IMG/VR virus record: IMGVR_UViG_3300021181_000027
Location: 1 to 35,703 of that record
Direction: 5' to 3' (one strand)
Origin: a virus
DNA length: 35,703 nucleotides
Part shown: positions 32,773-34,483 of the stretch, in pieces
How positions within the stretch are numbered: position 1 is the first letter of the stretch
Layout: each line of letters opens with the position of its first letter
The notes under the pieces: model-generated
Seen by the model: the letters and a program-made list of their open reading frames with translations, nothing else
Databases searched by the model: none
What the model was told of the DNA's origin: nothing
Position numbers and translations under genes: made by a program

Positions 32773-32787
32773 GAACTCCTAAGAGTG

Positions 32788-32888
32788 TAGCGTGCGGACG
32801 CATGACTATGCCGGTCGGGAATTTCCTAGTTGTTATGCGTGCGGACGCATGATCTACTAGGATCGCCTCTTATGCGTGCGGACGCATA
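32788..32888. promoter_or_regulatory. divergent control region with three palindromic operator-like sites
   Basis: Three copies of the 16-bp palindrome ATGCGTGCGGACGCAT: 32788-32803 (first two bases differ), 32835-32850 (perfect) and 32872-32887 (perfect, extending to 18 bp). Centres are 47 and 37 bases apart. They lie between the divergent starts at 32772 (minus) and 32909 (plus), an arrangement typical of a repressor switch region. The cognate repressor is not identified. Confidence 0.75.
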
Positions 32889-32908: not shown

Positions 32909-33436
32909 ATGGAATCCAGTTCAACTTTGAGATTTGAGCCGAACGTGCCGGTGGACGTGGCTTTGAAGTATGCCGGCGGGTTTCAGGTGACGTCGACGAA
33001 GACGAACCTGCCGCAGATGATGTACACGCTGACCGACGGGCGCCGGATGTATCTGGACCTGGCGGTGGCGGCGCGGGTGGATGCGCTGGGCGTGCCAAAG
33101 GGGCAGTCGTTCACGATCTGCAAAGTCGGGAAGGGCAAAGACGCGCAGTGGGCGGTGGGCAGCAAAGAAGCCGTGGCGGAGGCTGTGCCAGTGGTGCGGA
33201 GGCCTGCGCCACTCGAGTTTCCGGCGAAGCCGGAAGAGAGCTCGGCCGACGTGCGATCGCGCCAGGTAGTGGCTTCGGCGGACAACTCGATGCGGGCGTA
33301 TCTGAAGGCAGCGGTTTCCGCGGTGGCTGATACGGAGAAGTACGCGCACTCGATAGGAAGGGAGCTGACGTTCAGCTCGGCCGACGTGCTGACGGCGGCG
33401 ATTTTTCTGGCGCAGATGAGAGGGGGCCAGTGCTGA
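32909..33436 (+). CDS. conserved early phage protein, 175 aa
   Basis: From ATG 32909, just after the third operator-like site, with GGGAAGG as ribosome site. The N-terminal ~90 residues are a beta-rich unit: LRFEPNVPVDVALKYAGGFQ, MYTLTDGRRMYLDLAVAARV, and GVPKGQSFTICKVGKG. Resemblance to small conserved proteins of Acidobacteriota and their phages is from memory. A Pro/Glu-rich linker follows, then a helical end (MRAYLKAAVSAVADTEKYAH) reaching LTAAIFLAQM. A single-strand DNA or RNA-binding role has been a thought, but there is no motif that proves it. Being first after the operators, it is probably an early, repressor-controlled gene. Confidence 0.65.
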   Translation: MESSSTLRFEPNVPVDVALKYAGGFQVTSTKTNLPQMMYTLTDGRRMYLDLAVAARVDALGVPKGQSFTICKVGKGKDAQWAVGSKEAVAEAVPVVRRPAPLEFPAKPEESSADVRSRQVVASADNSMRAYLKAAVSAVADTEKYAHSIGRELTFSSADVLTAAIFLAQMRGGQC

Positions 33437-33522: not shown

Positions 33523-33692
33523 GTCAGCACTGGGAGGATCGGGACGCGGAGGACCGGCGGGCGTTTCTGCTGGTGCTGTTCGGGGCGGATCCGCGGGATG
33601 TCCGGACGCGGACGTATGGGCGCGAGGTGGCGATCGGGCTGGCGATCGGCCTGGCGATCGGAGTGGTGATATTGGCGGCGGTGTTGCGGTGA
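33519..33692 (+). CDS. small membrane protein, 57 aa
   Basis: ATG 33519 in an ATGA overlap. A charged N-terminal half (SQHWEDRDAEDRRAFLLVLF) is followed by one long hydrophobic helix EVAIGLAIGLAIGVVILAAV and ends LR. The GLAIGLAIG stretch is encoded by an imperfect GGGCTGGCGATC repeat. Function unknown; it resembles small phage membrane proteins of early operons. Confidence 0.5.
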   Translation: MSQHWEDRDAEDRRAFLLVLFGADPRDVRTRTYGREVAIGLAIGLAIGVVILAAVLR

Positions 33693-33744
33693 AGCGGCGC
33701 TCACTTTTAGGGGTCCTGCGGGATCAGAAAGCGAGGATACAACC

Positions 33745-33783
33745 ATGGGCGAACCAGTCGTTGTGTGGCCACCGGTTAACTAG
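33745..33783 (+). CDS. possible leader peptide, 12 aa
   Basis: ATG 33745 with GCGAGGAT upstream encodes MGEPVVVWPPVN and stops eight bases before a strong hairpin (33791-33814). The Trp-Pro-Pro run could slow a ribosome. A leader-peptide/attenuator arrangement is possible, but short ORFs arise by chance. Confidence 0.25.
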   Translation: MGEPVVVWPPVN

Positions 33784-33790
33784 GTCGGGG

Positions 33791-33814
33791 GGTCCGCTTG
33801 GCGCCAGGCGGACC
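33791..33814 (+). terminator. GC-rich hairpin, possible attenuator
   Basis: GGTCCGC (33791-33797) pairs with GCGGACC (33808-33814) around a TTGGCGCCAG centre that is itself nearly palindromic. No T-run follows, so a classical Rho-independent terminator is not shown. Confidence 0.4.
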
Positions 33815-33823
33815 GCTTCCTCC

Positions 33824-33882
33824 AAACCGGTTTGCAAACCGGTTTTGCCAAACCGGTTTTGCCGGGAAAACCAAACCGGTTT
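33824..33882. promoter_or_regulatory. cluster of four perfect AAACCGGTTT palindromes
   Basis: AAACCGGTTT at 33824-33833, 33836-33845, 33850-33859 and 33873-33882 (start-to-start 12, 14 and 23 bases). The cluster lies in a ~335-base gap without a sure gene, ahead of an AT-rich stretch containing TATACT (33930-33935), a candidate -10 element without a clear -35. Operator array or iteron-like origin are the two readings. Confidence 0.7.
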
Positions 33883-33955
33883 GGGCGCCTTAATAAGGAC
33901 CGCGCGCGCGGGCGCAGTGGAAGTTTCTATATACTCCAGTAGTGTAAAAACACAA

Positions 33956-33994
33956 AGCAGCAGCAGAAGAAGACTCGGAGGAGCTGCTGCTGCT
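33956..33994 (+). promoter_or_regulatory. CAG/CTG-repeat hairpin with Shine-Dalgarno-like loop
   Basis: AGCAGCAGCAG (33956-33966) is the exact reverse complement of CTGCTGCTGCT (33984-33994). The 17-base loop contains CGGAGGAG. If transcribed, the ribosome-site sequence would be displayed in, or sequestered beside, the stem upstream of the gene at 34028. Confidence 0.5.
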
Positions 33995-34027
33995 GCCTTC
34001 GCTGTTGGTTCGCCTGGTGTGACCACG

Positions 34028-34204
34028 ATGTTCTGCAAGACCTGCGGAGAGCCGGCGGACCGGTTGTGCGCGCTGTGCGATGAGCCGGCGTGCGGGAAGC
34101 ACCTGATCGTGGATCGCCTGGGAGCGAGCGCGGACGACGTGTTCGAATATGGCATCTGCGAAGAGTGCGCTAGGGGGCTGAGTGGAAGCGCTCGGCCGAA
34201 TTGA
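34028..34204 (+). CDS. B-box-like zinc-finger small protein, 58 aa
   Basis: From ATG 34028: CKTCGEPADRLCALCDEPAC, then GKHLIVDR and CEEC. This spacing (CxxC-x7-CxxC-x4-C-x2-H ... CxxC) is like the small cross-brace B-box/ZnF types found in bacterial and phage mini-proteins. Likely a metal-stabilised protein-protein or RNA contact module. The frame is open further upstream through the palindromic cluster, but that part has no protein-like features. Confidence 0.6.
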   Translation: MFCKTCGEPADRLCALCDEPACGKHLIVDRLGASADDVFEYGICEECARGLSGSARPN

Positions 34205-34436: not shown

Positions 34437-34483
34437 TATACTGGGTCGCGAGCGGCCCATTACAGTGAGGGCTGGAAACCCGG

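Follow-up and report, generated by a model that had tools for sequence, protein, structure and literature searches.

The window analysed here is the whole of a 35,703-base virus fragment from IMG/VR (IMGVR_UViG_3300021181_000027), which belongs to an uncultured soil phage. The phage is a tailed one, encoding a Mu gpT-like major capsid protein and a sigma factor, and the mean GC content of the record is 63.6%. Few replication origins have been located in uncultured phages. A dense array of four identical palindromes in this record, followed by an unstable segment and an inverted repeat of CAG and CTG triplets, is probably part of such an origin.

The initial annotation had reported four perfect 10-bp palindromes within 59 bases, with start-to-start spacings of 12, 14 and 23. 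All four are exact matches to AAACCGGTTT (Table 1), and no further copy occurs elsewhere in the record, even when one mismatch is allowed. Sites 1 and 2, together with the GC between them, form AAACCGGTTTGCAAACCGGTTT, which at 22 bp is the longest perfect palindrome of the record, and site 4 is the core of a 14-bp perfect palindrome (CCAAACCGGTTTGG, 33871-33884). Abundance of the 10-mer by chance, which had been named as an argument against the array, does not account for these four copies: in 200 dinucleotide-preserving shuffles of the record, the number of copies of any one perfect 10-bp palindrome within 60 bp was at most two (one in 197 shuffles, two in three).

AT-rich sequence had also been noted after the array, and this feature turned out to be more marked than claimed. 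By nearest-neighbour stability, the least stable 40-mer of the entire record lies here, between the palindromes and the CAG/CTG inverted repeat, the latter being an addition to what had been described before. The location in a gene gap is borne out by the nearest likely genes, of which one, a small frame, ends at 33692 and the next starts at about 34028, but a 171-residue frame (33689-34204), itself unsupported, remains open through both the array and the inverted repeat.

Table 1. Features in and around the palindrome array, with the initiator gene of a related phage; positions refer to the window unless a locus is named
Feature	Position	Strand	Remarks
Three TTATGCGTGCGGACGCAT-type sites, 17-18 bp	32786-32887		Spacing 47/37; between divergent frames
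Inverted repeat GGTCCGCTTGGCGCCAGGCGGACC	33791-33814		Near-perfect; just upstream of array
Palindrome (putative iteron) 1, AAACCGGTTT	33824-33833		Exact match
Palindrome (putative iteron) 2, AAACCGGTTT	33836-33845		Exact match
Palindrome (putative iteron) 3, AAACCGGTTT	33850-33859		Exact match
Palindrome (putative iteron) 4, AAACCGGTTT	33873-33882		Exact match
Putative DNA-unwinding element	33918-33957		32.5% GC; least stable 40-mer of record
(CAG)n/(CTG)n inverted repeat	33954-33999		Arms 33954-33969 and 33984-33999; CTG on both strands
Cys-rich small protein, 58 residues	34028-34204	+	Downstream of array; homologous stretch at L038 2264-2398
Short tyrosine recombinase, 204 residues	34484-35098	+	Catalytic domain; Pfam Phage_integrase, E 3e-30
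O-like initiator gene of G004	L038 4331-5473		Homologous to gene just downstream of L054 module

The same order of parts, from palindromes with a AACCGGTT core through an unstable segment to a CAG/CTG inverted repeat, is found in three other uncultured phages (G004/L038, G018/L054 and G024/L101). Only four such modules are known. In each of them the least stable 40-mer lies between the palindromes and the repeat, the ranks for L038, L054 and L101 referring to stretches of 16.0, 8.8 and 10.8 kb and not to whole records. The inverted repeat is confined to one place per record in the window, G004, G018 and G024 and did not turn up in a search of 17 further viral records, a set that includes many fragments.

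G004, which was found through the homology of its portal protein, has the gene order of the window: a homologue of the protein encoded at 32909, the gap, the Cys-rich frame and the integrase. The palindromes in its gap (GCAACTGGATGC, GCAACGGGTTGC, GAAACCGGTTGC and GCAACCGGTTGC) are spaced by 12, 15 and 31 bases, as compared to 12, 14 and 23 in the window, and a frame comparable to the 171-residue one is present as well. A scan of viral contigs for triple AACCGGTT yielded 44 stretches, many of them resembling coding or tandem repeats, and L054 alone among these carries an initiator homologue. It contains three (GTGC/GCGC)AACCGGTTGCAC sites, followed by the unstable segment and the repeat, with the initiator gene just downstream. 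Two further ACCGGTT sites (GTCACCGGTTCG and GTGACCGGTTCG) lie at 1875-1940 of this locus, beside an inverted repeat and just upstream of the initiator gene. L101 came from a search with the initiator gene family alone. Upstream of its initiator gene, a AACCGGTT site is again followed by an unstable segment and a CAG/CTG repeat, and as the array played no part in retrieving L101, this locus counts as an independent test. Sites of the AACCGGTT type at the module number three to four in L038 and L054, but just one to two in L101. In L054 and L101 the module occupies a gene gap, crossed by short frames only. Despite the common replication module, the window proteins have no detectable similarity to those in the compared stretches of these two loci, which suggests that the module may have been exchanged between otherwise different phages. 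Searches for the array region and the initiators in phage and plasmid collections and for triple AAACCGGTTT arrays in viral contigs gave no match, and searches of viral contigs with the integrase and the 32909 protein returned nothing beyond G004 and one distant integrase.

Homologous initiator proteins are encoded in all three relatives and in a fourth phage, G003/L039. Three of the four match the PHROG family 678, 'replication initiation O-like' (best E-value 1.1e-6), and two match PHROG 270, 'replication initiation protein' (best E-value 4.6e-4). Their N-terminal 110 residues are predicted to form a winged helix, with a mean predicted local distance difference test (pLDDT) score of 80. The nearest solved folds to this domain are DnaD N-domains, at a weak E-value of about 0.004, and the nearest predicted viral folds, likewise with weak E-values, include proteins annotated as replication initiators and one named lambda GpO N-terminal. 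A Foldseek search with the full initiator model (pLDDT 66) is too weak for use alone. At its C-terminal end, the G004/L038 protein matches DnaA_N (domain I) with an E-value of 1.8e-7, a match not detected in its homologues, and it is possible that this initiator docks the helicase directly through that part. A profile of the N-terminal domain found no match in other records, in a search that had no positive control.

Palindromes with the AACCGGTT core also occur within the coding sequence of three of the four initiators, one each in L038 and L039 and two in L101, at places where the proteins align poorly. Synonymous-codon shuffling gave P-values of 0.037 (L038), 0.043 (L039) and 0.0034 (L101) for these sites. 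The one in L038 is, with 16 bp, the longest perfect palindrome of its locus, and those in L101, perfect over 16 and 22 bp, are the longest of theirs. The main arrays lie outside the initiator genes; that of G004 precedes the start of its gene by 2.3 kb, and the integrase precedes it by 1.2 kb.

Of the functions considered in the initial annotation, an iteron-type origin is therefore the best supported, given that the unstable segment and the CTG repeat adjoin the array and that this layout recurs in three phages with O-like initiators. We consider it about two-thirds probable that the array provides the initiator-binding sites of an iteron replication origin of the lambda type. Because the order of the parts matches that of the lambda origin, we propose that each AAACCGGTTT palindrome would be bound, as an iteron, by a dimer of an O-like winged-helix initiator, and that binding would wrap the DNA and open the AT-rich segment at about 33918-33957. 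The corresponding initiator gene of the window phage would then lie past the right end of the fragment. The host helicase would be loaded next, in G004 perhaps directly via the DnaA-domain-I-like C-terminus and in the relatives by other means. Leading-strand priming could then take place at the (CAG)n/(CTG)n inverted repeat or close to it, with its CTG runs perhaps acting as primase start sites on both strands. The DnaG primase of E. coli primes on 5'-CTG (PMC5429622), a specificity that may not be shared by the primase of the host.

More tentatively, and with considerable doubt, the four modules might represent a distinct class of mobile replicon in uncultured phages. In such a replicon, a winged-helix initiator of the O-like type, whose C-terminal part would vary and in one case be a fused DnaA domain-I module for helicase docking, would act on AACCGGTT palindromes that lie partly in a dedicated origin and partly in the coding sequence of the initiator itself. 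The CTG-triplet inverted repeat would serve as a built-in primase start site for two strands, and the module would be swapped between phages whose other genes, as far as compared, show no detectable similarity.

Several observations weigh against an origin. No O-like gene is detectable in the window fragment, so that the link between the window and an initiator runs through the relatives, and in neither the window nor L038 does the array adjoin an initiator gene. The initiator gene of L054 has no internal AACCGGTT palindrome. The AACCGGTT core is invariant though the N-terminal domains of the other initiators are only 34-50% identical to that of L054, a slightly surprising combination if binding sites and protein evolve together. 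In the window, the gap between the last site and the unstable segment measures about 35 GC-rich bases, compared to 6-9 bases in the relatives. Mapping of the origin by GC skew, as proposed in the initial annotation, revealed no switch at the array; the skew is one-signed throughout the record and therefore uninformative on this question. A promoter with its operators would likewise be AT-rich beside the palindromes, and three-copy AAACCGGTTT arrays in chromosomes adjoin genes that read as LacI-family regulators (L005, L006, L008 and L011), an identity assigned by reading the sequences and not by profile search.

The last two points belong to the explanation that we regard as the chief competitor, although an improbable one, namely that the palindromes are operators of a transcriptional regulator, either a LacI-type one or some other dimeric helix-turn-helix protein, encoded by the host or the phage. 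The AT-rich segment would then be a promoter and the CAG/CTG repeat, which folds stably as RNA, a hairpin in the 5' leader of an early or integrase operon. In Pseudomonas, AAACCGGTTT forms the core of the operator TGAAACCGGTTTCA of PtxS, a LacI-family protein. Spacings in the arrays beside LacI-like genes are 13/13 (L005), 14/27 (L006), 13/13 (L008) and 27/11 (L011), and an ATC-TAT motif follows the last palindrome at a fixed distance in L038, L054 and L101. Of the chromosomal matches to triple AAACCGGTTT arrays, some were LacI-type operators and others tandem repeats of no relation. However, the base beside AAACCGGTTT is T in most LacI-linked arrays but C in the window sites, and the LacI domain (PF00356) was not found in the five phage records G000, G003, G004, G018 and G024, though such a regulator might be encoded by the host. 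On the plus strand beside the arrays, none of four phages has a promoter match in a scan that covers the sigma-70 type only. The genes directly downstream differ among the phages, and an operator offers no reason for palindromes within initiator coding genes. Moreover, a separate three-copy array at 32786-32887, made of 17-18-bp repeats and thus distinct from the AAACCGGTTT sites, as the initial annotation had stated, has three equivalents in G004/L038 (at 826, 874 and 911; spacing 48/37). This conserved, operator-like array is perhaps the operator of a phage repressor or early promoter. The suggestion that the palindromes are the operator of a second repressor is possible but has less support, the 32786-32887 sites being the more ordinary candidate. 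For a methylation or nicking target, also suggested at the outset, we found no evidence.

The other explanations are far less probable. Accessory or arm sites of the neighbouring tyrosine recombinase, in an attP region, would fit the start of the integrase gene 600 bp downstream of the array in the window and about 410 bp in L038, yet array and repeat also lie upstream of the O-like gene in L054 and L101, in stretches without a match to the window recombinase; in L054, a frame resembling a serine recombinase is found about 1.3 kb upstream. The window recombinase, besides, is of catalytic-domain size, and only that domain was matched. We rejected this explanation, as the array is not kept with the integrase gene across the relatives. 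Equally remote is a centromere-like partition site of a plasmid-like prophage. Centromeres typically consist of short repeats to which small dimeric proteins bind, and the predicted winged helix weakly resembles the centromere-binding folds of TubR and AspA, but the protein matches replication-initiator profiles, no partition gene was noticed near the module, and neither a melting-prone segment nor a CTG repeat is expected at a centromere. Least credible of all is chance or a protein-coding repeat within the 33689-34204 frame. An open frame does span the array in the window and in L038; the four window copies, however, are read in more than one frame, so that the repeat is not at the protein level, and the module is in a gene gap in L054 and L101. 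On these grounds we rejected a coding repeat, and we rejected chance on the grounds that none of the 200 shuffles attained four copies of one palindrome in 60 bp.

Among the surroundings of the array, the near-perfect inverted repeat just upstream of it is probably not part of the conserved element. The tyrosine recombinase, which has a 73% identical homologue in L038, is a neighbouring gene outside the proposed origin, and the window fragment stops 600 bp beyond it. Directly upstream of this gene, GCGGCCCATTACAGTGAGG (34451-34469) is a candidate core site or operator of the integrase. An identical copy is found in L038 at 2454-2472, and in both phages a half-element related to it, which reads GCGAGCGGCCC in the window, follows 74 bp farther on. 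Three 12-bp tandem copies of the TGGCGATCGGGC type (33628-33670) lie within a small, probably membrane-spanning frame. The sigma-70-like factor of the phage (20741-21349), with regions 2 and 4, could direct promoters outside a sigma-70 scan. Rfam and transfer RNA scans gave no match. Outside phages, the arrays of L005, L006, L008 and L011 occur in Chloroflexi, Paenibacillus and SAR324 genomes, and that of L010, also a triple AAACCGGTTT array, adjoins what reads as the gene of an extracellular binding protein.

If the proposed origin is real, the succession of AACCGGTT palindromes, least stable segment and CAG/CTG repeat would be a signature that predicts both an origin and its initiator family, usable in phages without a match among the annotated phage records searched, and a minimal replicon built on it might serve in poorly studied soil bacteria. 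Two questions would become testable: whether a DnaA domain I fused to a lambda-type initiator can serve to recruit the helicase, and whether primase starts at CTG runs in origins.

Among iteron plasmid origins of the P1, F, RK2 and RSF1010 type, repeated initiator sites adjoin an AT-rich unwinding segment as they do here, and putative priming sites on opposite strands recall ssiA and ssiB of RSF1010. The initiator of L101, however, had no matching plasmid record, and the sites in the phages are irregularly spaced palindromes, whereas the iterons of plasmids are mostly direct repeats and those of lambda imperfect inverted repeats bound by O dimers (PMC7466680; PMC5043065). With LacI-family operator arrays of the PtxS type (TGAAACCGGTTTCA), the phage arrays share the 10-bp core and a similar spacing, but they differ in being accompanied by a melting segment, a CTG repeat and an O-like gene. 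The lambda origin, which we examined as a yardstick, has four inverted-repeat iterons (39034-39118), followed by AT-rich DNA and an inverted repeat. The window likewise has four dyad-symmetric sites, then a melting segment, then an inverted repeat, and as in lambda and lambdoid O origins the presumed initiator is an O-like winged-helix protein whose gene can itself hold sites. The differences to lambda are that the sites are perfect palindromes of 10-16 bp around AACCGGTT instead of imperfect 18-bp sites, that their spacing in the window is closer (12/14/23 as against 20/24/23), that the main array lies outside the initiator gene, whereas lambda carries its iterons inside O, that the inverted repeat is built of CAG/CTG triplets, and that the initiator of G004 ends in a DnaA domain-I-like module.
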